Shown: positions 7,561 to 36,673 of the stretch, in pieces
Layout of the letters: the number at the start of each line of letters is the position of its first letter
Position numbering within the stretch: position 1 is the stretch's first letter
Virus record (IMG/VR): IMGVR_UViG_3300030329_004188
Coordinates: 1 to 37,684 of that record
Source of the DNA: a virus
Length of the DNA stretch: 37,684 nt
Direction: 5' to 3' (one strand)
Notes under the pieces: model-generated
What the model saw: only the letters and a program-made list of their open reading frames with translations
Database searches by the model: none
Told to the model about the DNA's origin: nothing
Position numbers and translations under genes: made by a program

Positions 7561-7983
7561 CTATAAATCCTTCAAAAATGTATTTTCAAAAGCCCGATAA
7601 CCCTTGGACCTGTAAATCTTTTCAACCTTTTTGCCGTCCAGCGCCGCCATCGAAACCATTTGTAACCGGTTCGCGCCGTGCGTCTTTGCCCAGCGCTCCA
7701 GGGCATGCAATAAATTAGATGCTGCGCCACGGCCCCGCTGATCCTCATCCACCCACCAAAACAGTTCTTGCGCCTGGCGTCGGTATTGATTGAAGAAATA
7801 CGGGAAAATTAATGCACCGGCACAGGCGCCGTCGGTGATGTAGATCACGCCGTCCGGGTTATCTATTAAACTCTCGGCAGTGACAACGACTGATTCACGG
7901 TCGATGTCTTCGCCCAGGGCATTGCAAAACCGCCTGGCCATTCTTAATAGCTCCGGCAGGTCCTCTCGAGTTGCCTGTCTCAT
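7561..7983 (-). CDS. GNAT family N-acetyltransferase
   Basis: This 140-aa protein has the GNAT fold signature. Strand 4 is ELFWWVDEDQRGRGAA, in which the Q/R-G-R-G-A loop binds acetyl-CoA, and it is followed by LLHALERWAKTHGANRLQM and a C-terminal YRSKGYRAFENTFLKDL. GNAT genes are often found among head-tail or ejection genes of podoviruses, where the acetylated target is unknown; modification of a virion or host protein is possible. It shares its start region with the stop of the upstream gene. Confidence 0.88.
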   Translation of the reverse strand: MRQATREDLPELLRMARRFCNALGEDIDRESVVVTAESLIDNPDGVIYITDGACAGALIFPYFFNQYRRQAQELFWWVDEDQRGRGAASNLLHALERWAKTHGANRLQMVSMAALDGKKVEKIYRSKGYRAFENTFLKDL

Positions 7984-10054: not shown

Positions 10055-11670
10055 TATCTGTCCAGGGCATTGCGTTTATCGTCACCAGGCATCGCAATTA
10101 ATGTGCCAACGACTGCCGGCGGGACTATCAGGGCAAGCAGCTTGGGATCTGCGAATCCGGCTTGTGCCTGAGCCAAAAGCACCCGGTCACGGGCCTCCTC
10201 CGGCGTAACCTTTAATCGTTTCGCTGTGTCATCGATCAGATCAGATAAGATCTCGAGTTTGGGCGCCCCTACCGCGGTCGCTACTCCTGTAGCGTCACTG
10301 AATAAGCCCCAGGCCACGGCCTGTGCAGGGACCGCCTCTAGCCCGGCTTGCCTGGCCACCTCCTCTCTCCACCAGGGCGCCAGTGTCTGTATCTCAGGCA
10401 CTGAGGCGCTGTCTCCTGGAACTCTTTGCTGGCCTTTTCTTGTTTGGGGGTTCCTGGTATCTGCCAGGCCCACGGCGCGGGAAAAATGGGCGTCAGGCAC
10501 CGCTATGTCAGTCTGCCCCCCGACCTCAGTGGCCTGGTTATATAAGCCGACTTTAGGCTCTTTGGATTGAATTTGCCCAGTCTCTAAAAACTTTCTGGCG
10601 CCGGGCGCCTGGGCAGTGGAGTGATACGGATGTCCAGGAAAGGTTTCAAGGTCTGGATGCCCCCTGGTACCTAAAGGTTTGCCGCCGTATTGTTGAAATT
10701 CGTCAAAGCGGCCAGCCTCGGCCAGCATGTTTGCGGCGGTACCCCGCTTGAGCTCTGTGACTACCGACGATCCTGGGCTCATTGCTGAGCTCAAGTTAAT
10801 CAATTGCGTATACAACCGGTTAGCCTCGAGCTGGTCACCGTCTACCAGTTGCAAAATACGATGATAGGCCGGGTCAAAGTTGTACCAGCCGGTCATGCCG
10901 TCGAATAACCGTGGCGCATGCTCTCGTGCCGCCAGTAACGACTCTGTCAGGCGCCGGGTGTTGGCCGGACCCATTACCTTAAATGCTGCGTCCGCGCCTT
11001 TAGGGGTAGCGGCGGCGCCCGGAATAACGCCAGGCCGTCCTCGCACATTAGCGCCCTTGGCAAGATCCTCACGGGTCACCCCGAACAGCCGGGACAACAT
11101 GGGAGACTCAGGAGCGACTTTGGTGTTTTCGATATATTTGGCGATCTGGTCCGGCGGCGCGTAAATACCTGGAAAGGCTTTTCGCTGCCCCTTTTGCACC
11201 GTCCTGCGTCCTGTCGTGGGCACCCCGACCGGGCCAGTGGTAGGAACCGCTCGTGTAACTTTACCAGGCCCGGCAACGTCAGCCAGCGCCGCCGTGCCAG
11301 CATAAAGTGTGCCAGCCGCCGTGGGCCCTATAAGGCGGTTCGCATGCCGCTCATAGAGATCCCTGGCCGGGCGCAAATACTCACCGATTTTCTGTATGCC
11401 CTGGCCTATGGACGCTAACTTATCCTGCGACCCTGGAAGCCTGGGCTGATAAGTAAACTCCTGCTGCTTATCCTCAATTCGGCCAGCCATTGCGTTTAAC
11501 GAATAATCAGGATTACCCTGGGCGTCACCGCCAATTAATGCATTAACGCCGCCCACCGCGTCACCAATAAGGCCGGTGCCGAGCATGGCCGCTATCTCCA
11601 GATTCTCAGCGGTCCCGACAAAAGGGTCTTTATAGTTACCCTGGTAATTGTTTTGGCGGTACTTAGGCAT
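10054..11670 (-). CDS. Unknown 538-aa protein between gp4-like and gp10-like genes
   Basis: I do not recognise this protein with confidence. The first 140 residues are Gly/Ala-rich with weakly hydrophobic stretches (AAMLGTGLIGDAVGGVNALIG, GPTAAGTLYAGTAALADVAG), like an ejected virion protein. Residues about 240-470 look like a compact domain with strong motifs: GWYNFDPAYHRIL, SSAMSPGSSVVTELKRG, QTDIAVPDAHFSRAVG and PWWREEVARQAG. A basic, soluble C-terminus follows. P22 has no gene in this place. It may be a virion-borne enzyme or an ejection protein. The overlaps on both sides show it belongs to the head-tail operon. Confidence 0.8.
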   Translation of the reverse strand: MPKYRQNNYQGNYKDPFVGTAENLEIAAMLGTGLIGDAVGGVNALIGGDAQGNPDYSLNAMAGRIEDKQQEFTYQPRLPGSQDKLASIGQGIQKIGEYLRPARDLYERHANRLIGPTAAGTLYAGTAALADVAGPGKVTRAVPTTGPVGVPTTGRRTVQKGQRKAFPGIYAPPDQIAKYIENTKVAPESPMLSRLFGVTREDLAKGANVRGRPGVIPGAAATPKGADAAFKVMGPANTRRLTESLLAAREHAPRLFDGMTGWYNFDPAYHRILQLVDGDQLEANRLYTQLINLSSAMSPGSSVVTELKRGTAANMLAEAGRFDEFQQYGGKPLGTRGHPDLETFPGHPYHSTAQAPGARKFLETGQIQSKEPKVGLYNQATEVGGQTDIAVPDAHFSRAVGLADTRNPQTRKGQQRVPGDSASVPEIQTLAPWWREEVARQAGLEAVPAQAVAWGLFSDATGVATAVGAPKLEILSDLIDDTAKRLKVTPEEARDRVLLAQAQAGFADPKLLALIVPPAVVGTLIAMPGDDKRNALDR

Positions 11671-12089
11671 CAGGTGCTATCAGTATTGATGTCGTACCGG
11701 GAGCCAAAATGCCCGCTGCCATCAGGCAGGTGCGACATATCCGCATTGTCGAGGCGCTCCGCAATGCTTTTACGTTGCAGCATAGAGAATGCTGAATCAT
11801 ATTTTGCAAAGAGCTCCGGGGATAATGTGGCGCCGTACTGCGGAGCCAACACAATCGCCAGCCCGGCAGTAACCGCCATCCTGGCCCAGTCGGGCACGGG
11901 GCAACTGTCCTGGATATCTGACTGCTCGAACCAGCCAAAATCGATATCGTTCTCCTTTAGCCCTTCCATGAACTGGTTTAACTTGGTCAGCGACTGCTGG
12001 CCCTGTTCTGCTGATGCGCTTTGCACCTCATTGATGACATTGATTTCACGCAATGCATCCGTAATCAAATTGACATTCAGATACGCCAT
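11670..12089 (-). CDS. Head-tail adaptor / DNA stabilization protein, gp4-like
   Basis: This 139-aa protein is mainly helical: LITDALREINVINEVQSASAEQGQQSLTKLN is split over two helices, followed by the pattern DWARMAVTAGLAIVLAPQYGATLSPEL. This matches the P22 gp4-like family of tail accessory factors, which assemble as a ring under the portal after DNA packaging. It comes first in the tail module, directly after the radical-SAM cassette. P22 gp4 is slightly longer (166 aa). Confidence 0.78.
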   Translation of the reverse strand: MAYLNVNLITDALREINVINEVQSASAEQGQQSLTKLNQFMEGLKENDIDFGWFEQSDIQDSCPVPDWARMAVTAGLAIVLAPQYGATLSPELFAKYDSAFSMLQRKSIAERLDNADMSHLPDGSGHFGSRYDINTDST

Positions 12090-12097
12090 TTACAATC

Positions 12098-12922
12098 CTA
12101 GTATGTGCAGGTTTTACAGACATCGATCGTGTGTCTGCTGGACAAATTCTCACGACGGTCCCGCCAGTGCGGGGCGTTATAAATCTCTAAAAGTGTGCTC
12201 TCCCGGCAGTCTCCGATCGGGAACCGTGCCTGGCCGTCCATGCAACACAGCGACACTACGCCAGAGCTGATGATGGACAACTCAAACCACCTCGAGCAAC
12301 TGTCATCGGGTATGGTCGGGTCGTTTGGCTCCACGTCACCCAGCCACCCATCCTTTTTGATAATGACGGTATGAAACTTCGGCCAGCGCCGCTTGATGTA
12401 GCGGATAAAACCGTAGTCCATGTTGCCGACCTTGGACAGCACCACCGGATGCGGGAACTCCTGCGCATGCAGGTTATCCAGTCTCTTGGCGGTGCGCTCA
12501 TAAGGCATATCCATGAGCTGCTCATATTCTTCTGGATCTACGCTATTGAGCGACACCCAGAAATGAAAGACTCGCTCCAGCTTGGCCAGCCGGTCAATGT
12601 GTCGTTGTGTCAATGCCGCGCCATTGGAAAAGATGCGGAGCATGGCCACCGTGCGACTGGTTACCTCATTACAAATGTCATACAGGCGCTTATCAAGAAG
12701 CGGCTCATTGACCTTGAACGGCGAGAAAAAGAACGGAATGGTAAACCCTTCCATCTCACTGATAATCTTCTCTACGAGCTCGTCAGGCATCTTGTCACCC
12801 TTCCGATCGAGCGTTGGGTAAGGGCAAAAGGTACAGGCCGCGTTACACAGCGAGATTGTCTCCAAAGAGATCTCGTGGGGCTGGTCCATGTAGACCTCGG
12901 CCAGCTCCTGGTGCGTAGTCAT
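12098..12922 (-). CDS. Radical SAM protein with SPASM-like C-terminus
   Basis: This 274-aa protein has the radical-SAM cluster motif CNAACTFC (C26, C30, C33), which holds a 4Fe-4S cluster that cleaves S-adenosylmethionine. Barrel strands follow (FFFSPFKVNEPLLD, RIFSNGAALT, FWVSLNSVDPEEYE). The C-terminal part carries Cys residues arranged as in a reduced SPASM domain (DDSCSRW, SLCCMDG, GDC, and final CKTC at 269-272), which would bind an auxiliary cluster. Substrate unknown. It overlaps the methyltransferase by 4 bases and forms a three-gene modification cassette with it and the glycosyltransferase. Confidence 0.85.
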   Translation of the reverse strand: MTTHQELAEVYMDQPHEISLETISLCNAACTFCPYPTLDRKGDKMPDELVEKIISEMEGFTIPFFFSPFKVNEPLLDKRLYDICNEVTSRTVAMLRIFSNGAALTQRHIDRLAKLERVFHFWVSLNSVDPEEYEQLMDMPYERTAKRLDNLHAQEFPHPVVLSKVGNMDYGFIRYIKRRWPKFHTVIIKKDGWLGDVEPNDPTIPDDSCSRWFELSIISSGVVSLCCMDGQARFPIGDCRESTLLEIYNAPHWRDRRENLSSRHTIDVCKTCTY

Positions 12923-13437
12923 TTAGTACATTTTAGAACGAAGGCAAAACCCTCATCCTCATATTTGTTTGCGATTAGCTCAAAGTTTTTCTTCCAGTAG
13001 AAGCGGTAATCCGTCATTGAGGTTTTGGACACCTGCATCTCATATTCACGCTGGCACAAAAACACCAGGGTGCCCTCGTTAATGATCCTGGTGTGACCGG
13101 GATCTCCCCATGCCCAGGCGCTGTCCCAGGCCGGCACGGTGCCACAAAAATAGGCGCCGTCCTTCATTACCCGGTGGAACTCAGCGAACTGGTCAAAAAA
13201 GAACTTCCAGTCTCCCTGGGTGCCTAAGTGCTCGAGCACCTCATAGGCGTGTACCTCATCAAACGTATTATCATCAAACGGCAATGGTATGTTGTTCAGG
13301 TCCTGGACAATGTCAGGCTTGCAGTCTTCGTCAATATCAATTTTAGTTACGTTCTGCCATTCCTTTTCAATGCCCAATCCCTGAGCAAAAACCTGTTTCT
13401 CGTGCTTCTTGCCACAACCCAAAAGTAGCTCACGCAT
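12919..13437 (-). CDS. Class I SAM-dependent methyltransferase
   Basis: This 172-aa protein has motif I LLLGCGKK near the N-terminus, an acidic strand-2 end (VTKIDIDEDCKPD), and FDEVHAYEVLEHLG after strand 4, as in the Methyltransf_11 type. The target may be a sugar, a small molecule or a protein. It overlaps the glycosyltransferase upstream and the radical-SAM gene downstream, so the three are likely made together and act in one pathway, for example on a surface glycan or a virion component. That joint role is inference. Confidence 0.85.
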   Translation of the reverse strand: MRELLLGCGKKHEKQVFAQGLGIEKEWQNVTKIDIDEDCKPDIVQDLNNIPLPFDDNTFDEVHAYEVLEHLGTQGDWKFFFDQFAEFHRVMKDGAYFCGTVPAWDSAWAWGDPGHTRIINEGTLVFLCQREYEMQVSKTSMTDYRFYWKKNFELIANKYEDEGFAFVLKCTK

Positions 13438-14203
13438 TTCTACGTCCTCCCAGCTTTCTCGGGGCTCTCACCCTCTCTTTTTGTTCTTTCACCTGCCCGT
13501 CCAGGTGCGCTAAATAATTGCCCTCGTAGCCTCCATGCACAAAATCAAAGTCCATCCAGACATCGATAGGCTTGCCGTATTTCTTCACGACCTTGTCGCA
13601 GAACGTAAAGTCCTCACCGACGAACCTGGCGTCACTGTCAATATGTGTCTCAAACAGCCAGGGCACCGGGCCGTCCTGCCCGTGAATGTCCAGCCACTGG
13701 GTCTTCGGGTCATTGGCCATGTCCTCGATCAATGACCGATGCATACATAAAAACCCGGTCGGCACCCGCTTGCATTTCAGGTAGCCATCCTCATCGATCC
13801 ACAGGCAGTCCTCACCTTTGGCTTTAGTAAGCTCAGGCTCGGGCCACCATTTAGCAGGATAATCAGTATCCTCCTGGCGCCGTGGATACACACCGGCAAC
13901 CATTGGCCGTTTCTCATTGACCACATTGACCAAACCACAAAATGCATTGGCGTCGAACTTAAGGTCCGAGTCGATGAACATCATGTGCGTACAGCTTTTC
14001 AGATCTTCAAGCTCTAAAAAGAACTTAACGAAGATGTTCCTGGCCAACTCTATAAATGCGCCGTTGCCCATGACAGCCGCCGTGACCCGGATCCCGAGCA
14101 CCGCCGCATGCCAGGCCGCATTAGCAAGCGACTGGCTATAGGCTACATCCACCTTGCCATCATAGGCAGGGGTTGCCACATAAACGTGGGGTAAATCACT
14201 CAT
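13430..14203 (-). CDS. GT-A type glycosyltransferase
   Basis: This 257-aa protein begins VYVATPAYDGKVD and has the metal-binding DxD motif in MMFIDSDLKFDANAF, followed by VAGVYPRR. A downstream acidic/aromatic motif (FVGEDFTFCDKV) may hold the catalytic base. The fold would be GT-A (family 2-like), transferring a sugar from a nucleotide donor. It is first in the modification cassette, straight after the terminator behind the coat gene. A GAGAGGC ribosome site lies before the ATG. Acceptor unknown: host O-antigen, capsid protein or DNA are all possible. Confidence 0.83.
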   Translation of the reverse strand: MSDLPHVYVATPAYDGKVDVAYSQSLANAAWHAAVLGIRVTAAVMGNGAFIELARNIFVKFFLELEDLKSCTHMMFIDSDLKFDANAFCGLVNVVNEKRPMVAGVYPRRQEDTDYPAKWWPEPELTKAKGEDCLWIDEDGYLKCKRVPTGFLCMHRSLIEDMANDPKTQWLDIHGQDGPVPWLFETHIDSDARFVGEDFTFCDKVVKKYGKPIDVWMDFDFVHGGYEGNYLAHLDGQVKEQKERVRAPRKLGGRRNA

Positions 14204-14227
14204 TTTTGCCTCTCTTTGCCTCTCAAT

Positions 14228-14253
14228 AAAAAACGGGGCCCCGAAAGGCCCCG
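14228..14253 (-). terminator. Rho-independent terminator after the coat gene
   Basis: On the minus strand, CGGGGCC and GGCCCCG form a 7-bp all-GC stem around a 6-base loop (14234-14253), directly followed by six T (14233-14228). It lies between the coat protein stop (14299) and the glycosyltransferase start (14203). An outer GCCTCTC/GAGAGGC pair could extend it. It should reduce read-through from the highly expressed capsid genes into the modification and tail genes. Confidence 0.88.
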
Positions 14254-14298
14254 CCGCTATTCACCCGAGAGGCAGGTGTTTAGCTGATCATTACGTCA

Positions 14299-15561
14299 CT
14301 AGAGCAAGTCCTGCTCGTATCTGTGTACGGACGCAAGCTCTGGGTAGAGCTCGGCAAATCCCCACAAGACATCGATACGACACGGGATGGTGTCAGAGCT
14401 GATGGCGTACTGCCTTGCCACTCGCATTGAGATACCGTCCTGCTCGGCCCGTGCTCCCCAGGCGCCATACTTGGATACGTCCTCCAGATCCGCAGATGCA
14501 AACACAAATGCGTCCTTGTGGAAGAAAAGATCCTGGTTAAAGGCGCTGGATGCGGCACCGATACGACTGACCGCGTTGCCGTCCGTGTTAGCCACGCCGG
14601 ACAGGACACAGTTCTGGTAAGCATTACCAGAGCCGTACATCATGCCAGGCTTAACCGTCACGGTGTAAGCATTTGCCGCAGTAGTCAGCGTCACATCGGA
14701 CTGCACAACAAAGGTCTGTAGAACGCCCTTGTTGACCTTAGTCTCAGGGTGAACGCCGTAGACACCGGCAATGGTGATAATGTCACCGGCCTTTAGCGTC
14801 GTGGTCGAGGTCGCACCGTCAACGGACAGGTCTGTCTGTGACACCCAGGAATTAGCTGTGGTAGCCGTTCCCAGGGTAGTGCCGTTGGTTAATGGACTGC
14901 CAGCAAGTGAGCCGGTGGTATGGCTCGGCAGTAACGTATTTTCGTATACGTCAAAGCCACCGGTCCGGCCAATTGAGCCCTCCCGGTACTGCTTACGGAT
15001 ATTCTCGGATGCCTGGTACAACCCTTTAACCGCGTCGTTAAACTCAACGACTGAGTCAGGGGTTAGGCATGCGGTACGGTCGCTGGTTGGGCCCAGCTCT
15101 TTGGTGATGTTCGCACCGTTTTGCTGGAACCGCTTATAGGTCAACAAACCATCCGTGCTTGCATTCGAGTAGTTAAAGGTCCGTTTGTAAGCAACCGCCA
15201 GCGCGTCACCCTCTATCTTGGCCGCTAACTGGGCCATTGCTGGCTTCAATATGCGGTCTGAGAAATCATCGAGCTCCATCGTCAGCTCCACACTAGTGAA
15301 ACTAACATCGACGCCATACTGACTTGACACTGTCAGTGGCGTAGACCTCTCGAAATGCTCCTCAGCAGATAGCGTTGCACCGGTTCTCACCGAATACTTG
15401 CTTGGCATTCGTACATTCAAAGATGTGCCGATTTTGGCACCAGATTGCGCGAACCTGTCATCGTACTGGCGATTCACGCCACCGATAAAGTTCGATTGCT
15501 GGTGCAGTACCCGTAAAGCCTCACGGGTGATCATAGTCGGCGTAAGTATAGTATTAGCCAT
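14299..15561 (-). CDS. Major capsid protein, P22 coat (gp5) family
   Basis: This 420-aa protein starts with the well-known pattern of this family: TPTMITREALRVLHQQSNF, then NRQYDDRFAQSGAKIGTSLNVR. The length is close to P22 gp5 (430 aa). Residues about 225-330 look like the inserted I-domain, with LKAGDIITIAGVYGVHP and a following strand region. It forms the T=7 shell around the scaffold. The gene has a GAGGAT ribosome site and is closed by a strong terminator 46 bases after its stop, in keeping with high expression. Confidence 0.93.
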   Translation of the reverse strand: MANTILTPTMITREALRVLHQQSNFIGGVNRQYDDRFAQSGAKIGTSLNVRMPSKYSVRTGATLSAEEHFERSTPLTVSSQYGVDVSFTSVELTMELDDFSDRILKPAMAQLAAKIEGDALAVAYKRTFNYSNASTDGLLTYKRFQQNGANITKELGPTSDRTACLTPDSVVEFNDAVKGLYQASENIRKQYREGSIGRTGGFDVYENTLLPSHTTGSLAGSPLTNGTTLGTATTANSWVSQTDLSVDGATSTTTLKAGDIITIAGVYGVHPETKVNKGVLQTFVVQSDVTLTTAANAYTVTVKPGMMYGSGNAYQNCVLSGVANTDGNAVSRIGAASSAFNQDLFFHKDAFVFASADLEDVSKYGAWGARAEQDGISMRVARQYAISSDTIPCRIDVLWGFAELYPELASVHRYEQDLL

Positions 15562-15564
15562 ATA

Positions 15565-16455
15565 TCATAATCCTCGTTTTGCTAATTCTGCTTGCCTCCG
15601 TCGCAGCCAGTCACGGTCAGATAACTTGTCCGAGTCCGGGCTGGTACTTGCAACCCGTAGACCAGGGCTCGTTGCCTTGACCTTGGGCGGCGGCGGTGGC
15701 GCCTTGCTAACCTGCTGCTCTTGTGTTGCCTCACGGGCACCCTCAAGCGCTACTTCCAGCCGGGCAATACGTCGGGTCACTTCCCGTGGCGGTAACGTTG
15801 AAATCTCACTAGCGAGCTCCGGGTGCTGTCCTAAATGGTAGGCAATCGCCGGCCCATTCTCAGCCGCCTGGATTTCAGTGGCCATGTCCTGGGAAATATT
15901 CAGATCAGGGGACTTCGCAATCTCATCATAGTCAGTATGAGTCTTGGCAAATTCCCGTTCCTTTAAATCCCACCTAGCCGTTTGCTCTGCGGCCTCGGCC
16001 TGGGCACGAATGTCCTGGGCCACACGGCCAGCCTCAGCCTTGGCAACATCAATTACTTCCGAGTGCAGGTACTCACGGTACTGGTTCTCGTCATAATTAA
16101 AATCAGCCAGGGTCTTAGCGGGCTCTTGTAGCTTTTGCGCTGCCTCACTGGATAGCCGCTGCTGCTCAAGCTCTGCGGCCAGCTCCTGGTTGTGCCGTTC
16201 TGCGTCACGCCAGCGTTTGGTTAGCTTATCAATGCGCTTCTGGACCTTGTTCTCGTCCTTGGGCGCCTCAGTGTCATCGGCTTTTTTATCGAGGCTGTTG
16301 ACTTCTTCCTCGGCGGGTGGTGACTCCGCGTCGTTATCCGGTTCCGGGTCAAGCTCATATCGCTGTGCCGGGGCAGCATCCACCGCCTCCGGGTCAGTCG
16401 GATTAACGTCTGCACCAGTATTGTCAGGCACCTCTGCCTGTGCTGTTTCACTCAT
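15565..16455 (-). CDS. Scaffolding protein
   Basis: This 296-aa protein is highly charged and helical. It has an acidic N-terminus (ELDPEPDNDAESPPAEEEVN), a long coiled coil (about 65-150), and a short basic C-terminal helix (SDRDWLRRRQAELAKRGL), the region that binds coat in P22 gp8. Its length (P22 gp8 303 aa) and place directly before the coat gene fit a scaffold that guides procapsid assembly and exits before packaging. Confidence 0.85.
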   Translation of the reverse strand: MSETAQAEVPDNTGADVNPTDPEAVDAAPAQRYELDPEPDNDAESPPAEEEVNSLDKKADDTEAPKDENKVQKRIDKLTKRWRDAERHNQELAAELEQQRLSSEAAQKLQEPAKTLADFNYDENQYREYLHSEVIDVAKAEAGRVAQDIRAQAEAAEQTARWDLKEREFAKTHTDYDEIAKSPDLNISQDMATEIQAAENGPAIAYHLGQHPELASEISTLPPREVTRRIARLEVALEGAREATQEQQVSKAPPPPPKVKATSPGLRVASTSPDSDKLSDRDWLRRRQAELAKRGL

Positions 16456-16491
16456 TGCAACCCCTCTCAGTGTTGTATTTATGCCGCAGGT

Positions 16492-18798
16492 TTAAGGCCC
16501 TGCGTCTGCCTCGGGCTCAATCTCAAGTTTGCCGTTATTTCTTACCGCGCTAATCGTGCGGGTCGAGCCATCGTCATACTCAATATCAGCCACCAGTTTT
16601 CCGTTTTCGCGGCTGGTAGATCCACCAACCACCTTGCGTTCTGTTTTCTTGTCCAAAAAGTCCACGGCCTCATCTGCGGCCTTCATAAAGCCCGCCAGAA
16701 TCTCGTCTATTTCTGCGATTCGCTGCCTGACTTCTTCGACGTTGCCCTGGGCATCCAGGAACTCACCATGCACCGCAATGCCTGGCGCCATAGCCGCCTG
16801 GGACTTGGCAATGGTTACCTGTAACCGGTAGAGCTGCTCCATTTGTTTTGCCATGTGCGCGTCAAAGACAGCCTTGGCCTTATCTATATCGGCCATCTGC
16901 TTACCGAGCTCAGCCTTTTCTTTGGCTATTACCGCGCCATCTTTCTCTGCCTCTGCGCTGGCTTGTTCAGCCGCCGCGCCAAGCTGCTGCACCTGCTGCA
17001 TCGCCTGTTCTGCCTGAGCCATTGCCTGGACCACCTCTGGCGGCAGGTTAGCGTCCTGGTTAAGTAACTGCTGCACAGGTGGCGGCAGCATTACCCGTAA
17101 CCGGTCAGCAATATCCTCGGCATACGGAAGATCCAGGGACTTGAACACCAGATCACCGGCAAAGCCCATCAGGTCGGGGAACTGTTGCGCCAACGCCCCG
17201 TATGTCTCAGCCGCCTCCTGGCGCTGCGTGGAAAAGTTCGGGCCAACGGTGATATGGATGTCGTACTTGCCGGTGGTGATGTCATTTACCCGGACCGCGT
17301 CCCCATCTGGTGTCGTGACAATCTGGTTAACACGCACATAGTCATCGGCCCCGTCACTGCCCAAAATCCTGAGCTCACGCTCGGTGTCGTAGATATGGGG
17401 TATCAGGTCAAGCAGGATCTCATAGGTACGCTGCACACCCTTGGCCATGTTGTCCTGATAATTAAACGTCGCTATCTCACCCTGGTTCTGCCTGGCATAG
17501 ATCGCACGGCCACTGACCTCATTTGAGCGCATCCCGAGACTTGCATCGAAGATACCAGTAGTCGATTTAATCTCGTCAGAGGCTAACTGGGACTCCTGTA
17601 TCAAGGCCATTGGCACATCCGCGCCTGGCATTAATGTCGGGGCACCGGGCGCCTTCTCGTCCGGGTTATAAAGCATGAACGGCAGGTTCTTCTGGTGCGC
17701 CTCACTCCACTGCTGGGTTAATCCGGCGGCTTGCTTGGGCGTGGCCCACCACTTGGATTTAGGGGTCTGGGCAATAGTCTCGGAGATGGCGGTGCGGGCA
17801 ATGTTATAAGAGCGCTGCGCGTCCTTGGCAAACCTTGGCAGTCCCCACCAATAGGTCCGGCCATCGATCACGACATGCTCACCGTAGACCATGATAAAAG
17901 GAAACTGGCTACCGGCCCACTCGACAGGTCCCTCGAGGATTCTGTCACCGCACACAACGGCCATGCAGATCTTTGTTGTTTCTACCTGGCGCCGTTGCTG
18001 TATCGCGGCTACCAGCTCCTCACTCTCAGCCTCGTCCGACTCGGAATCGACTACCCGGCCATCATTTAATTGCCACAGCTCCTTGGTATGCGGTTTTTTG
18101 TACCAATACTCGGCAATCCTGACCGCGTCATCATCCTGCCAGTCTTCCTGGTCATCAAACTCATTACTGTCGAACTCTTTAACCTCAACGTCCGAGTAGC
18201 GCTGCTCAAACTCCACCCTGGAGATTTTCTCTGTCAGGATCCAGTCGTTAGCGTCACGTTTTAATATGTCCTTACACGCCGGATCTGCGTACAGACAAAA
18301 TGGGTTAGCAATCTGGCGCACCATTATGTCCTGGGTGAACACATCATCATCCGTATAGTCAACGTCTACCCGCCACGCTGCCATTCCTCCGTTTACCTGG
18401 TACTCAGCCGCATAATCGGTAATGGTTTCTGCGTCAGACACTGACCAGATGTTTCTGCACAAACCCTCCAGTGTTTCGGCCACTTCCTTATCGCCTGTCT
18501 CGACCGGCCTGACCTTAGCCGCCGGGCGGTTAGCCCGCATCTCATTGATAATTCGTTTGGAGCTTATGCGTACCTTGTTAAATTCGTAGCACGGCCTGTT
18601 GCCACGCTCCTGCTTCATGTTGTCATCCCACTGCGCCCCAGGCACATTGGCAAACTTCATGTCTTCCATTGCCTCACGCCGGTTCCGGCCATCCGCCTCG
18701 GACATCATCTTGAATCGTTCCTTGACCTTGTCGAGCAGCTCACGGTTAGATTTCTTGGAGGCTTTTTTGCCGCCTATGGCTTTCTTTGTCTCGTACAT
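16492..18798 (-). CDS. Portal protein, P22 gp1 family
   Basis: This 768-aa protein has the typical N-terminal region of P22-type portals: NRREAMEDMKFANVPGAQWDD, NRPCYEFNKVRISSKRIINEMRAN across two segments, and NGGMAAWRVDVDY. A core with GWATPKQ-like and TTGIFDASLGMRSNEVSGRA motifs follows, and then a long Gln/Ala-rich helical region (about 575-700), like the P22 barrel. It forms the twelve-fold ring that is the DNA entry and exit gate. P22 portal is 725 aa. An AGGA ribosome site precedes the ATG. Confidence 0.92.
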   Translation of the reverse strand: MYETKKAIGGKKASKKSNRELLDKVKERFKMMSEADGRNRREAMEDMKFANVPGAQWDDNMKQERGNRPCYEFNKVRISSKRIINEMRANRPAAKVRPVETGDKEVAETLEGLCRNIWSVSDAETITDYAAEYQVNGGMAAWRVDVDYTDDDVFTQDIMVRQIANPFCLYADPACKDILKRDANDWILTEKISRVEFEQRYSDVEVKEFDSNEFDDQEDWQDDDAVRIAEYWYKKPHTKELWQLNDGRVVDSESDEAESEELVAAIQQRRQVETTKICMAVVCGDRILEGPVEWAGSQFPFIMVYGEHVVIDGRTYWWGLPRFAKDAQRSYNIARTAISETIAQTPKSKWWATPKQAAGLTQQWSEAHQKNLPFMLYNPDEKAPGAPTLMPGADVPMALIQESQLASDEIKSTTGIFDASLGMRSNEVSGRAIYARQNQGEIATFNYQDNMAKGVQRTYEILLDLIPHIYDTERELRILGSDGADDYVRVNQIVTTPDGDAVRVNDITTGKYDIHITVGPNFSTQRQEAAETYGALAQQFPDLMGFAGDLVFKSLDLPYAEDIADRLRVMLPPPVQQLLNQDANLPPEVVQAMAQAEQAMQQVQQLGAAAEQASAEAEKDGAVIAKEKAELGKQMADIDKAKAVFDAHMAKQMEQLYRLQVTIAKSQAAMAPGIAVHGEFLDAQGNVEEVRQRIAEIDEILAGFMKAADEAVDFLDKKTERKVVGGSTSRENGKLVADIEYDDGSTRTISAVRNNGKLEIEPEADAGP

Positions 18799-24383: not shown

Positions 24384-25087
24384 TAGGTTATCCCTCGGTT
24401 AATGCCTCTCCCGACCCCTTTGGGTGCGGTTCTATCAGCGTTCAATTCAAATCCCTCCAGGACAATTCCCAGTCCCACCATCTGGCTCGCAATGCCATCG
24501 TTTGCAATCCTGGTTGTCCCGTCCACAACGCCCAGGCCGTCGGCCACTGTGTAGGACATCTGCTCATCGCCTGGGTTACCGCCATAGTCAATCCGCTCAG
24601 TCAAACCATCGACATTAAACGGCTCCCGGTTGGCTGATACGTCGATTGCGACGCCGATAATCGCTGACCTTGCGTCAGCCGTTGACGTATTCAGGTCAAC
24701 ATAGGTGCCGGACGCGGTTGAGTCGGTATCAATGGTAGGCTCCACCTGGCGGCAGTTGGCATAGGTCGCGTAGTAGTAGCCCAGCTTGCCACCGGTAGAA
24801 ATATCATCTGCGTACAGCATCTCATGGTCGTCAGCCTCATTGATCTGGTACTCATCCCATATGGCGTATTTAATTATCAGGTCTGGCGTACTGTCCAGAT
24901 ATGATTCGCCACCGTATGAATAAGCCTGGCCACCATAGGTCCAGGTTGACGGGGTAAAATTTGTGCCTCTCTCGCGCACCAGGACCATCACCAGAAACCG
25001 GGAAGTGCCACTGCCCAGGTTAATTGTTATCCCAGTGGGCTCGGCGCCGTGGGCACCTTCCCATGCCTGGGTCCGGGTCACCGCCAT
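24383..25087 (-). CDS. Virion-associated protein, paralogue of 22424-23104
   Basis: This 234-aa protein is the second member of the duplicated pair, sharing RERGT, SYLDSTPDL, CRQVEPTI and VSANREPF with the gene at 22424-23104. It lies right after the 767-aa gene (TGATG overlap). The pair may supply two related receptor-contact or capsid-surface proteins; divergence between them is consistent with different partners. No enzyme motif seen. Confidence 0.75.
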   Translation of the reverse strand: MAVTRTQAWEGAHGAEPTGITINLGSGTSRFLVMVLVRERGTNFTPSTWTYGGQAYSYGGESYLDSTPDLIIKYAIWDEYQINEADDHEMLYADDISTGGKLGYYYATYANCRQVEPTIDTDSTASGTYVDLNTSTADARSAIIGVAIDVSANREPFNVDGLTERIDYGGNPGDEQMSYTVADGLGVVDGTTRIANDGIASQMVGLGIVLEGFELNADRTAPKGVGRGINRGIT

Positions 25088-27390
25088 CAGAACACTTCCA
25101 TAAATAACGCCGTGTACGGCGGCAGGTGAATCGTGTCACTGGTGACATCAATCTCCTCACCATTGTTCCAGTCGGTGTCGTGCCCGCAGAATCCTGCATT
25201 CTCCAGGGTGTAGCCGCAGGTTGTGTCAAATGGTGTTTCCTGAAGCGGGCCGTAATGATACGAATCCGTCCACACTGTCGGCGCCTGGGCCCGCAAAAAA
25301 CTGGTCGCGGTGTAATTAATATAATCTCGCTCATCAAAACGCCTGAGCCGCTCACCGCTTTGCAGCAGGTTAACCGCTGCCCAGTCAGCCGGGGTAATCT
25401 GATCCTCAGGCCTGACCGGGAACGGGTTACTGCCGCCAGGGCTACGGTACCAGTCACCATAGCCATCGGGCGTGTCGCACATATTCAGGGCAACAATCCA
25501 GTCCTTAACCCGATAGATAAAAATCTTTTCGCCCGCGTCCTTGGCGCGAAACGTAAAGCCATGCAGTGGCAAGTCATCGTCCCCAAGCTCGCCCGAGTCC
25601 TGGGCATAGGTGCCAAGCTCAGATCCGGGGGTAATATACCCGGTCGCGCTTCTGTCAAGATCGATAAAGTTTTCACCAATCATGTATGGCGTCGTGTAGC
25701 CTGACTTCACGTTTGCGGAAAAATTTACCTTATCAACCAAAAGCATCGCCGCGAGCATGTAACGCATCGCATGCGAATCTTCAGTGCCCAGCGTGTCATA
25801 GCCCGCCTCCCCGAGCGGATACACAATAAATTCCCAAAACGCGCCGTACCCATGTCTTCTGGTAAAAACGGTTTCGTTACGGATAAAAGTCTGCGCAAAA
25901 TAGAGACTGCGCATATGCTTATTGGCGTCGTAATTCTTGATGCTGTATTGGTGCGTGTCACCAGTGTCGCGTTTAAACCCCGCGTCCGTGCCCGAGGCGT
26001 TCTCGTCCAAGCCAATATCCAGCTCTTGCTGCATGTCGTGGGGCACCTTAAAACCGGTCCTCTCTTTTAACGTAAAACTCCTGGAGATCCCGTTCCAGCC
26101 ACGAGCGGTCTTATGCTCGCCGGCGCTATGTTCCTCCACAAGCACATCGAGCTTATCCCACACCGCTTTCATCCCAGGGAACCAGGTGGCCGCGCCCGCT
26201 GTCCTGGCTAAAGGGGTGCCGTTTTTTCCCCAGTCGAGTGAGTTGCTCGTTATATTCAAATCGTTAATGCAATATTTCCAGCCAGCAGCCGGCACAGCCG
26301 TCTGCGTGTCATTCGCCTGTCTCGGAAGATTGCGCAGGGTCATTACCTTGCCGGAGCTGTACTGGATCCGGTACACGACCCACACATTGTCTCCGGTAAA
26401 AAACCAGATGGGGTGATCCTCCACATTGCCATCCGGCGCCGCATCCAGGGTCACAGTCTTTATATGGGTCGGCAAACTTGGGTGAGCGGTCACTGAGGCC
26501 ACCGTGCCGTTTTGCAAGGCATGGTAAACCAGCTTGTTTGGCGTGTTTTCCCCGATACTGGTCGAATCGTTAAATACACTCATGTAGTGACTAGCGTCAC
26601 CACCGACATTCGGCAGGGTTGATTCATTCGATCCTGTAATCAAATCGCAGTAACTGTCAGCCCACCAGTCCTGCAAGGTCGTGTCAGTCGGATTGATGGT
26701 GAGCTGCGTCTGTGCCCAGCCGCTAACCGGAGTGGTCACTGCGTTTAATTCATCGGCGTTGGTCGCATCCTTTTGCGCCAGTACGTCTTCCCTTGGCTGG
26801 GTCTGGAGATAATCATATAAATACATATCCCACTTGTCGCGCTTGGTCCGGTACGCTCTGTTGCCATTTAAAAAAGGATGCATATGTAGCGAAACAGACA
26901 ACAACGGATTATCCGCGTAAAGCTCATTCCATTTTTCAATCTGGTCCGGGCGCTGGCCTTGCGTAAACATGCCCATCGCTTGGCCAACAACATGGTTGGT
27001 GACCCTGGCCCACAAATAAAGCGGGTTATAACCCTGCTCGTTAAACACCGCCTTTTTCTCTTTGGTGGGGTCGAGCTGCCACAGCCGCCTGATCAACCCG
27101 GACACTACGCCGCCGTGCCTATTTGATATCGGGTACTCACTTATTGCGCCGCCGATTACGGATCCGGCAGTTGCCGAGGAACTGCCCCCGGTAATGGTTG
27201 CCTCGACCGGATTTGAGCTTTGCGCGGCGCTGACGGTGCCCGCTAAAGCCGAGGCCCCTGCCCCGGTGAGCACACTGAAACTGTCGCTCCCGCCTGGCTC
27301 GGCTCCATCGACATTAAAAATTGTGATTGACGCTGCTATTGCCATAACGATTGCCGCAATTACCCAGATCTCCACAAAATTTACGCCCAT
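25087..27390 (-). CDS. Large 767-aa protein, candidate virion-borne glycosidase or adhesin
   Basis: First gene of the late operon. It has an N-terminal membrane-like helix (VEIWVIAAIVMAIAASITIF), a Ser/Ala/Gly linker to about residue 90, and then a large domain rich in Trp, Tyr, Asp and His (SVSLHMHPFLNGN, KWDMYLYDYLQTQ, TLQDWWADSYCDL, ENFIDLDRSATGYITPG). It ends in a small sandwich (IHLPPYTALFMEVF). The order of a barrel-like aromatic core followed by a short sandwich recalls glycoside hydrolases. I cannot place a catalytic pair, so the activity is a guess. A terminator hairpin abuts its ATG. Confidence 0.78.
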   Translation of the reverse strand: MGVNFVEIWVIAAIVMAIAASITIFNVDGAEPGGSDSFSVLTGAGASALAGTVSAAQSSNPVEATITGGSSSATAGSVIGGAISEYPISNRHGGVVSGLIRRLWQLDPTKEKKAVFNEQGYNPLYLWARVTNHVVGQAMGMFTQGQRPDQIEKWNELYADNPLLSVSLHMHPFLNGNRAYRTKRDKWDMYLYDYLQTQPREDVLAQKDATNADELNAVTTPVSGWAQTQLTINPTDTTLQDWWADSYCDLITGSNESTLPNVGGDASHYMSVFNDSTSIGENTPNKLVYHALQNGTVASVTAHPSLPTHIKTVTLDAAPDGNVEDHPIWFFTGDNVWVVYRIQYSSGKVMTLRNLPRQANDTQTAVPAAGWKYCINDLNITSNSLDWGKNGTPLARTAGAATWFPGMKAVWDKLDVLVEEHSAGEHKTARGWNGISRSFTLKERTGFKVPHDMQQELDIGLDENASGTDAGFKRDTGDTHQYSIKNYDANKHMRSLYFAQTFIRNETVFTRRHGYGAFWEFIVYPLGEAGYDTLGTEDSHAMRYMLAAMLLVDKVNFSANVKSGYTTPYMIGENFIDLDRSATGYITPGSELGTYAQDSGELGDDDLPLHGFTFRAKDAGEKIFIYRVKDWIVALNMCDTPDGYGDWYRSPGGSNPFPVRPEDQITPADWAAVNLLQSGERLRRFDERDYINYTATSFLRAQAPTVWTDSYHYGPLQETPFDTTCGYTLENAGFCGHDTDWNNGEEIDVTSDTIHLPPYTALFMEVF

Positions 27391-27486: not shown

Positions 27487-27897
27487 TCAGAAATTTTCAT
27501 TCACTAAGATTATATTTACCCGCACCAGGCGCAGCGCCCTGGCATGCATCTCCTTGATTCGTTGCTCGGACAATTTAAACCTGGCGCTTAGTTGGATGTA
27601 GTCCCAGCGTGACAGGTAATATCTTTTGATCAGGGTTAGCAGCCGCTTATCCTTTTCGGTTTTTAAACGGGCCACTGCCCGCTCGATTACCAGGGTCTTA
27701 TCGTTCATGTCATCGACGCTAGGCGGGCGCTCATCATCAATAATCCTGGACATCATTCGATACAGGGCATGCTTTGGCTTGTTTAAAAGCGAGTCGGTTC
27801 TTGCCCAGTTGCCCCACTCTGTGAGCAGGTTGTGAATCTCATCATCAAAGCCGGACGGCATGTTTAACCGGCCAGCCTTGCGCTCAGCACCCGCCAT
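27487..27897 (-). CDS. Q-type antitermination protein
   Basis: This 136-aa protein matches the Phage_antitermQ pattern: LTEWGNWAR near the N-terminus, a polar linker (IDDERPPSVDD), AVARLK, then LIKRYYLSRWDYIQLSARF followed by LSEQRIKEMHARALRLV. The last part is a helix-turn-helix like sigma region 4. Q proteins load on RNA polymerase at the late promoter and let it pass terminators; here a promoter and terminator lie just downstream. The gene overlaps the end of the methyltransferase by 34 bases; an ATG at 27861 would avoid the overlap and give 124 aa. Confidence 0.8.
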   Translation of the reverse strand: MAGAERKAGRLNMPSGFDDEIHNLLTEWGNWARTDSLLNKPKHALYRMMSRIIDDERPPSVDDMNDKTLVIERAVARLKTEKDKRLLTLIKRYYLSRWDYIQLSARFKLSEQRIKEMHARALRLVRVNIILVNENF

Positions 27898-34798: not shown

Positions 34799-34980
34799 CC
34801 GAGTCGCTTTTAAGAATTGGCACTGTGAAAAAAAGAACCGGACTTTCTCGGTCACAAATTTACCGGATGATGGCAAATAGGGAATTTCCCAAGAACGTCC
34901 AGTTAACTAAGCAGTGTGTTGGTTGGCGCGAGACTGAGATCGACAACTGGATTCACGCGAAAATTCGGGCGGCTCGATAA
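34795..34980 (+). CDS. AlpA-family regulator, probable excisionase
   Basis: This 61-aa protein has the AlpA winged-HTH pattern: LLRIGTVKKRTGLSRSQIYR followed by FPKNVQLTKQCVGWRETEI and DNWI. AlpA proteins act as transcription activators or excision factors for P4-type integrases. Here it is last in the SSB operon and overlaps the integrase tail to tail by 74 bases, which fits an excisionase. Its expression would follow the dyad-controlled promoter at 32286. Confidence 0.85.
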   Translation: MTESLLRIGTVKKRTGLSRSQIYRMMANREFPKNVQLTKQCVGWRETEIDNWIHAKIRAAR

Positions 34981-36316
34981 CTTTTGCCGGATTGGCAGGT
35001 ACCACCCATCGCTCCCACTCTTGCATGACTTTGTGCCGATGGATTAAAAGATCCCCGCGCATGTAGCGCATTTCAAGGTCATCACCCGTCGAATGCGACT
35101 GGCACATTTTGATAACGTCGTGGTGTCGCAAACTTAACTTTAGAATCTCGTGCGCCCAGGTGCGAAAAGCAGACCGCATCCCATGCGTTGTAAAATTAAA
35201 CTCTGCAAAATCCCTTTTAATAGCTGCTGTCATTGTTTCTTTGCCCATTGGGTTACTCCCTGAACCGCGCCCATGAAAAATAAACTCATCAGGCTTCCCC
35301 CTGGGGATCTGGTCAAGGATCTTTAGCATTTCTTTTGTCAGGGGTACCGCATGCCCATCATAAGATTTGAATCTCCCGGTCTTGATGTTGTCCACCGGCT
35401 TAACCCAGATCGGCAATTGTGAATCCTCCTCGACCTGAATATCTCTCCATCGCGCCAGCCTCGTTTCGCCGCCCCGAGCGACTGTGAGCAATGTCCATTG
35501 GATTGCAAGCCGCACCCGCGCTTTCGCGCCAGAGTACCAGGCGTGATTTCCAGTGGCTGTCGCATAGGCCGATGGTAACGGCTCTGACAGTCGCGCAAAC
35601 ACCTCGGCAGCCGCATTGTGGTGCAGCCCCCGGTAGCATTTTGACTTTTTGTAAAAGCTCGCTTTATGGAACTCGAGCGCTAATCCATTTTTCCACCTGG
35701 CAGGATTCCTTTTATCACTCGGAAAATATCCTTTATTACGGGCGCCATCAAAAACCTTCTCAATCTCCGGCCCGAGCAGCTCGCCAGTGCGTGGCGTCTT
35801 CTTGTAAACTCTGTGGTACAGCCCAAGCAGATCCTGGGTCGTAATGTCGTTAATTTTCCTATCACCAAGAATTGGGAAAACGTGCTTTACGAAACGCCCT
35901 TTGGTTTGCGCTTTAAACAGCTTGGTACCCTCGAGCGGGTCTTTTTTCCAGGCTTTCGAGCGGTGAAACAAATAGATTGCAAAGGCCTTTTTAAAGGTAA
36001 TATTTTTTTTCTCTTGTTCGGCTTTTTTTATTGCCGCGAGTTCAGATTCGCGCTGCTCCGTTTCTCTTTGCGCTTTCGGGTCTATCCCCTGCTCCAAGGC
36101 ACGGCGCAATTCAAATGCCATGTCTTTTGCTTCTCGCATTGAGACTTCGGGAAATTTACCCAGTTTTATTTTTTTTGTTTTCCCGTTTAACGTATACCGA
36201 AAAAACCAGTATTTGGTTGATTTACTTTTGACCACGAAACTCAGTTTATCCGCTACTGCATGGCTCTTAGCTGCTGATGCTGCTACCAATTGAGAGTGTG
36301 TTTTTAGGGTTGCCAT
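34907..36316 (-). CDS. int: Tyrosine-type integrase
   Basis: This 469-aa protein has an N-terminal arm-binding domain (DUF4102-like: YWFFRYTLNGKTKKIKLGKF, then MREAKDMAFELRRALEQGID) and a C-terminal catalytic domain. Visible catalytic residues are R281 (TVARGGETR), the H378-x-x-R381 motif (THGMRSAFR), H408 (CQSHS) and the nucleophile Y418 (EMRYMRGD). It recombines attP with a host tRNA-Asn gene. The ATG at 36316 has a GAAGGA site; an upstream start at 36358 would run over the operator. The end overlaps the AlpA-like gene. Confidence 0.93.
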   Translation of the reverse strand: MATLKTHSQLVAASAAKSHAVADKLSFVVKSKSTKYWFFRYTLNGKTKKIKLGKFPEVSMREAKDMAFELRRALEQGIDPKAQRETEQRESELAAIKKAEQEKKNITFKKAFAIYLFHRSKAWKKDPLEGTKLFKAQTKGRFVKHVFPILGDRKINDITTQDLLGLYHRVYKKTPRTGELLGPEIEKVFDGARNKGYFPSDKRNPARWKNGLALEFHKASFYKKSKCYRGLHHNAAAEVFARLSEPLPSAYATATGNHAWYSGAKARVRLAIQWTLLTVARGGETRLARWRDIQVEEDSQLPIWVKPVDNIKTGRFKSYDGHAVPLTKEMLKILDQIPRGKPDEFIFHGRGSGSNPMGKETMTAAIKRDFAEFNFTTHGMRSAFRTWAHEILKLSLRHHDVIKMCQSHSTGDDLEMRYMRGDLLIHRHKVMQEWERWVVPANPAKVIEPPEFSRESSCRSQSRANQHTA

Positions 36317-36330
36317 TTTTCTGTCCTTCG

Positions 36331-36358
36331 GTTCTATGCGTAAGACGTATAGTATCAA
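36331..36358 (-). promoter_or_regulatory. Integrase promoter with embedded operator
   Basis: Minus strand: TTGATA (36358-36353), a 16-base spacer, and TAGAAC (36336-36331), about 15 bases before the int ATG. The dyad CTATGCGTAAGACGTATAG (36334-36352) fills the spacer. Repressor bound here would shut off integrase in the lysogen. Confidence 0.62.
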
Positions 36359-36542: not shown

Positions 36543-36600
36543 GTAGAACGGATAACTGTTAATCATCGGGTCGTTGGTTCGAGTCCGACCCGGGGAGCCA
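36543..36600 (+). other. attP core: tRNA-Asn(GTT) 3' fragment
   Basis: The segment matches the 3' part of a gammaproteobacterial tRNA-Asn: anticodon loop CTGTTAA, the T-arm with GGTTCGAGTCC, and acceptor end CCGGGGA followed by GCCA. No 5' acceptor or full D-arm is present, so this is not a working tRNA gene. Integration would rebuild the host tRNA 3' end with this copy. In the anticodon stem GATAA faces TCATC with one A-C mismatch, so the identity with the host gene, and the exchange point, may begin at the anticodon loop. Confidence 0.85.
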
Positions 36601-36673
36601 TCTAACCCACTGTTTTACTTCGCTTTTCCCGTTGATACTTACGTTTCAATTTCCCAAATTACCTAAGTTTTTC

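Follow-up and report, generated by a model that had tools for sequence, protein, structure and literature searches.

A putative virion glycosylation cassette behind the coat gene of a temperate P22-type phage integrated in Woeseia

To our knowledge, capsid glycosylation has been documented in few tailed phages. In the mycobacteriophages Che8 and Rita, glycans were reported on the major capsid proteins (PMC11256854). In PBCV-1, the capsid glycan is completed by A061L and A064R, which add rhamnose and O-methyl groups to it; A064R combines two rhamnosyltransferases and an O-methyltransferase (PMC9614988). A role in coat glycosylation has been proposed for STIV A197, although this protein was not biochemically characterised according to PMC4187194. 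Outside viruses, a GT41-like Spy protein with a methyltransferase domain is encoded beside fliC (PMC7526173). Our search of the open-licence literature found no published description of a coat-linked trio of glycosyltransferase (GT), methyltransferase (MT) and radical SAM genes. Here we analysed such a trio in a virus record of 37,684 bases (the window). We consider it more likely than not (probability of about 0.62) that these genes form a late-expressed virion glycosylation operon with the coat as the most likely target, an O-methylated sugar and optional radical SAM editing.

The phage and the layout of its head operon

The window sequence, in circularly permuted form, was found inside an 83.7-kb MAG contig of uncultured Woeseia sp. 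(C10:455 to C10:38096). The left end of this prophage is inside a tRNA-Asn(GTT) gene (L272 437-512; L273). The att core, formed by 44 bases from the 3' end of this gene, recurs at the right end (window 36561-36604), next to the integrase gene (34907-36358). The right flank looks chromosomal, since the translations there read as aroA-, serC- and gyrA-like proteins. Thus, the window phage is a temperate P22-type phage integrated in marine Woeseia (Gammaproteobacteria). The genes and signals that concern us are as follows.

27487-27897, minus strand: Q-like antiterminator, the likely driver of the late operon (phrog_79, 1e-13)
16492-18798, minus strand: portal protein (PF16510, 1e-166)
15565-16455, minus strand: scaffolding protein (phrog_8865, 2e-36)
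14299-15561, minus strand: P22-type coat protein, the putative glycosylation target (P22_CoatProtein, PF11651, 2.6e-40)
14255-14232, minus strand: intrinsic terminator between coat and GT, a stem-loop followed by a T-run
13430-14203, minus strand: GT, predicted soluble GT-A fold glycosyltransferase, 257 aa
12919-13437, minus strand: MT, class I SAM-dependent methyltransferase, 172 aa (Methyltransf_11, 4e-6; alignment of 37)
12098-12922, minus strand: radical SAM enzyme with a twitch-type auxiliary Fe-S domain, 274 aa (PF04055, 3e-12; PF13186, 6e-9)
11670-12089, minus strand: gp4-like head-tail adaptor Ad3, the next gene of the operon (phrog_637, 4e-15)

The three overlapping enzyme genes that the preliminary description placed between coat and gp4 are confirmed as open reading frames, all on the minus strand. 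GT and MT overlap by 8 bp, and MT and the radical SAM gene by 4 bp. The order of transcription is coat, GT, MT, radical SAM and Ad3, with scaffold and portal before coat. The hairpin between coat and GT is GC-rich and has a T-run and a fold z of -3.1. The cassette had been described as set off by a strong terminator; the terminator is real, but it bounds the coat side only, and Ad3 starts 8 bases past the radical SAM stop codon. A hairpin resembling a terminator was found behind coat in 31 of 63 relatives, but behind none of the other head genes tested (0 of 290). No sigma-70-like promoter was matched in 11600-16600. One Q-driven late transcript probably covers both the head genes and the cassette, and the terminator may allow coat to be made in excess of everything downstream. 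The cassette would be transcribed late with the head genes, and at a lower level than coat owing to the terminator behind the coat gene.

Elsewhere in the window, several early and tail genes had no match in Pfam. A gene for a 767-aa protein (25087-27390), located between the Q-like gene and terminase, matched neither Pfam nor phrog families. A GNAT-type acetyltransferase gene (7561-7983) is immediately before the DNA ejection gene, and an acetyltransferase is also annotated in Xanthomonas phage PBR31, where it follows the tail fibre gene.

The three enzymes

The following motifs were located in the three proteins.

13964-13972, minus strand: GT DxD motif (D78-S79-D80)
13210-13242, minus strand: MT signature EVLEHLGTQGD (residues 66-76; alignment of 37)
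12824-12847, minus strand: radical SAM CxxxCxxC (C26, C30, C33)
12107-12298, minus strand: auxiliary-cluster cysteines in twitch layout (C209, C226, C269, C272)

GT had no match in Pfam, while it matched phrog_1574 (4e-20) and a phrog family named glycosyltransferase (3e-6). Its structure was predicted with a pLDDT of 96, and the best solved match to the fold was STIV A197 (Z 16.9, rmsd 2.4 over 163 residues, 18% identity over aligned residues). The fold also resembled a region of the collagen lysyl hydroxylase LH3, a collagen glycosyltransferase (Z about 15), Mimivirus R699 (Z 14.3) and domain 1 of PBCV-1 A064R (Foldseek, 1.9e-4). D78 and D80 are invariant in 57 sequences, and DxD is present in 96/96 members of the close family. 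The predicted fold and the invariant DxD place this protein among the GT-A glycosyltransferases. No strong transmembrane segment was found in the GT, MT or radical SAM proteins. A P22-type O-antigen conversion (gtr) cassette was considered and rejected, owing to the lack of such a segment in the three proteins and the position inside the head operon; gtr cassettes are sets of a membrane flippase and membrane glycosyltransferase located outside the late operon.

The SAM-binding motif I of MT (LLxGxG) was found in 129 of 135 relatives, and the signature reads EVLEHxGxQGD across the alignment. Motif I and a Methyltransf_11 match above the cut-off identify MT, as judged from its sequence, as a class I SAM methyltransferase. 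Bacterial relatives are 44-51% identical to the phage protein. In four of the bacterial loci the MT homologue is the C-terminal part of a TPR-GT41 protein (Rhodocyclaceae, L186; Dechloromonas, L191; Sphaerotilus, L194; Magnetococcales, L196), and in two it adjoins a GT41 gene (L190, L201). GT41 enzymes are protein O-glycosyltransferases. In one locus (L192) the homologue has a TPR-GT41 gene on one side and an MptE/Maf-like gene on the other, with fliC, fliD and fliS nearby. A motif search for flagellin beside all bacterial MT relatives gave this locus only; the link to flagellin thus depends on a single locus, whereas several loci support the one to GT41.

The third protein matched the Pfam families Radical_SAM (3e-12) and SPASM (6e-9). 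CxxxCxxC is invariant in 16 aligned sequences and present in 49 of 50 distinct full-length relatives, and together with the PF04055 core it indicates membership of the radical SAM superfamily. The C-terminal domain has a C-x11-G-x4-C followed by a terminal CxxC, and the protein ends 2 residues later. This layout is kept in 49 of 50 distinct relatives. Its four cysteines would ligate one auxiliary cluster, and they and the alignment with BtrN indicate a twitch-type enzyme like BtrN. A full SPASM domain with two auxiliary clusters was rejected, as the seven-cysteine motif is not present. Thus, of the SPASM-like enzyme proposed earlier, the auxiliary Fe-S domain stands, but it is twitch-sized. 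Loss of Fe-S or SAM-binding residues in homologues had been named as a point that would speak against the proposal; instead, the catalytic residues are retained. By sequence, the only solved relatives that we found are BtrN, a carbohydrate enzyme. By fold, BtrN, DesII, SuiB and ChlB are within one Z unit (mean model pLDDT 80), and the sugar enzymes (BtrN, DesII) tie with the peptide enzymes (SuiB, ChlB).

Conservation and genomic settings

The coat query gave 57 viral loci, and the core counts were made on the 24 loci whose coat shares at least 58% identity and whose coat-Ad3 interval is complete. GT was present in 24/24, MT in 23/24 and radical SAM in 8/24. After clustering at 90% coat identity, the counts were 20/20, 19/20 and 7/20. 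When loci from the GT query were added, a set biased towards GT, the counts were 43/43 for GT, 40/43 for GT and MT, and 15/43 for all three. Most P22-type phages at greater distance lack the cassette, with GT in 3 of 11 complete intervals; in PBR31, ctNMl277, DSL-LC05 and PAE2 (coat identity 33-38%) the gap between coat and tail adaptor contains small hypothetical genes only. The preliminary description regarded the combination as unusual for a 37-kb phage, and this did not hold: coat-GT-MT is the normal order of an uncultivated clade, about a third of whose members add radical SAM. Annotated phage records gave no match at the DNA level and no close radical SAM or MT relative at the protein level; the GT protein search gave about 30% identity in cyanophages and weaker matches in Sinorhizobium and other phages.

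Pairwise distances of GT correlated with those of coat (Spearman rho 0.57), as did those of MT (0.54), Ad3 (0.61) and scaffold (0.63), and none of 500 permutations gave correlations as high. GT and MT diverge less than Ad3 and scaffold do. In close pairs dN/dS was mostly 0.03-0.2 for all three genes, with some pairs synonymously saturated. These values indicate that the three genes are under purifying selection, and their catalytic motifs are retained. Because of the distance correlation with coat, the low dN/dS and the recurrent terminator after coat, GT-MT appears to behave as a core part of the head operon and not as a passing moron. Coat residues specific to cassette carriers exist, but they are confounded by clade; they were not counted, because the carriers form one clade.

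The radical SAM gene is an optional third member, usually after MT. It is displaced within the head module in two relatives, to a position before scaffold (L017) or directly after portal (L174). When the whole records of 12 long relatives were searched for a displaced radical SAM gene, 7 had none; these 7 also have no cassette copy, and the records are possibly fragments. Several relatives carry other genes in this region. In one of them (L010 4206-5254), radical SAM is preceded by MT in two tandem copies, which share 55% and 41% identity with the window MT and might represent two methylation steps. A gene of about 105-117 aa lies between GT and MT in several (L025 3438-3770, L017, L021, L026, L027 and L079), with no phrog match in L025. 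In two relatives that have no radical SAM gene, a gene of about 200 aa follows MT; the one in L022 (5408-6019) matches a minor coat protein family (phrog_1644, 9e-10), and the one in L087 (9818-10426) is of the same size.

Among the 65 viral loci with a radical SAM gene, MT lies within 700 bp of it in 61, and coat, GT and MT are all nearby in 40. In a phage of another type (L160), MT and radical SAM are between terminase and portal, as checked by family; gene sizes in L162, L169 and L175 resemble this arrangement, and L232 has MT between terminase and portal. The occurrence of the three genes apart in unrelated places had been named as a finding against a shared role. Despite the MT/radical SAM pairs at terminase-portal junctions, the genes stay together in the P22-like clade. 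In L244, a major head protein of another family (phrog_10), GT and MT are consecutive. A minority of MT relatives adjoin DNA polymerase genes (L240, L263; L246 matches the same family), and we therefore keep roles other than virion glycosylation open. In L240 (6144-10427), DNA polymerase matches extend over two open reading frames (366 and 503 aa) that are separated by MT and small genes, which looks like an invaded polymerase gene.

Proposed function and comparison with known systems

In the mechanism that we propose, the soluble GT-A enzyme would transfer a nucleotide sugar to a virion protein in the cytoplasm, and gene position points to the coat encoded upstream as the most likely acceptor. 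The host would have to supply this donor, since the window contains no recognised nucleotide-sugar gene. MT would then O-methylate the attached sugar, and the twitch radical SAM enzyme, where present, may alter it further by oxidation, epimerisation, deoxygenation or a similar reaction. As in phage virion-glycosylation systems, a phage-encoded, apparently cytosolic glycosyltransferase is associated with structural genes. The earlier suggestion that the genes act in a single pathway decorating a sugar or peptide has good support from gene order, co-divergence with coat, purifying selection, motifs and the MT-GT41 fusions, while the radical SAM folds do not decide between sugar and peptide. A more specific form of the proposal is tentative, and we think it somewhat more likely to be wrong than right: radical SAM would edit a protein-linked, O-methylated virion sugar, and coat-terminator-GT-MT would be passed on vertically as a core head module in a large, uncultivated clade of P22-like phages.

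The preliminary description left the decoration to the capsid or the host surface. An action of the enzymes on LPS, capsule or some other glycan of the host, whether during late infection or in lysogeny, is unlikely; it would serve to exclude superinfection or to keep new virions off debris. Such a role would suit a temperate phage that was found integrated, conversion by glycosyltransferases is common among P22-like lysogens, and the finding of MT relatives in a flagellin locus means that host flagellin could also be a target. However, the genes sit within the late head operon, where no promoter was matched, and they lack a membrane or flippase partner. Moreover, nearly all members of the clade carry GT and MT, whose divergence follows that of coat, unlike patchy conversion genes. 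For these reasons of position, promoter and partners, and because of the fold relatives of GT, the capsid is favoured, though not proven.

The radical SAM enzyme might also act independently of GT and MT and mature a peptide or protein, such as a coat residue, so that one operon would serve two functions. The fold scores of SuiB and ChlB equal those of BtrN and DesII, and the gene is separable, being missing in two thirds of relatives and displaced in L017 and L174. The near-constant proximity of MT nevertheless ties the enzyme to the methyltransferase, the only solved relative found by sequence acts on carbohydrate, and the window cassette has no precursor-like small gene; we regard this independence as quite improbable. 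Hypermodification of phage DNA bases by GT and MT against restriction is very improbable: phage glycosyltransferases often modify DNA and some MT relatives adjoin DNA polymerase genes, but the window contains no recognised gene for base hydroxylation or nucleotide modification, the cassette sits among head genes, and the bacterial MT relatives accompany GT41 protein glycosyltransferases.

Virion glycosylation would be of wider interest, since GT-MT, often with radical SAM, is directly behind coat in practically all examined members of a diverse uncultivated clade and recurs behind the major head protein of another family. If confirmed, methylated, sugar-coated virions would be common in nature. 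This is relevant to the resistance of environmental phages to binding, proteolysis or host factors, and the cassette would offer a compact, testable capsid-glycosylation system.

Among known systems, the GT41 (Spy/OGT)-methyltransferase proteins share a homologous MT domain, fused to or beside TPR-GT41 and once next to flagellin genes, but the phage GT is GT-A and not GT41, and the phage target is by hypothesis a virion protein. BtrN and DesII resemble the phage radical SAM enzyme in the core, the auxiliary cluster and the best fold scores, and BtrN also in sequence match and size, while identity to the phage enzyme is about 16-20%. Che8 and Rita are likewise tailed phages, with reported capsid glycans; in their relative Maravista, the GT genes are near the 3' genome end and not behind coat. 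STIV A197 is also a small soluble viral GT-A enzyme and the best fold match of GT, but it belongs to an archaeal virus and shares only the 18% identity given above, and we know of no methyltransferase partner for it. PBCV-1 differs in being a eukaryotic giant virus with a fused multidomain enzyme, an N-glycan, no radical SAM described and negligible sequence similarity. Even so, with a virus-encoded cytosolic GT-A enzyme and a class I methyltransferase acting on a capsid glycan, and with A064R-D1 among the fold matches of GT, PBCV-1 appears to be the closest worked-out parallel to the mechanism proposed here.
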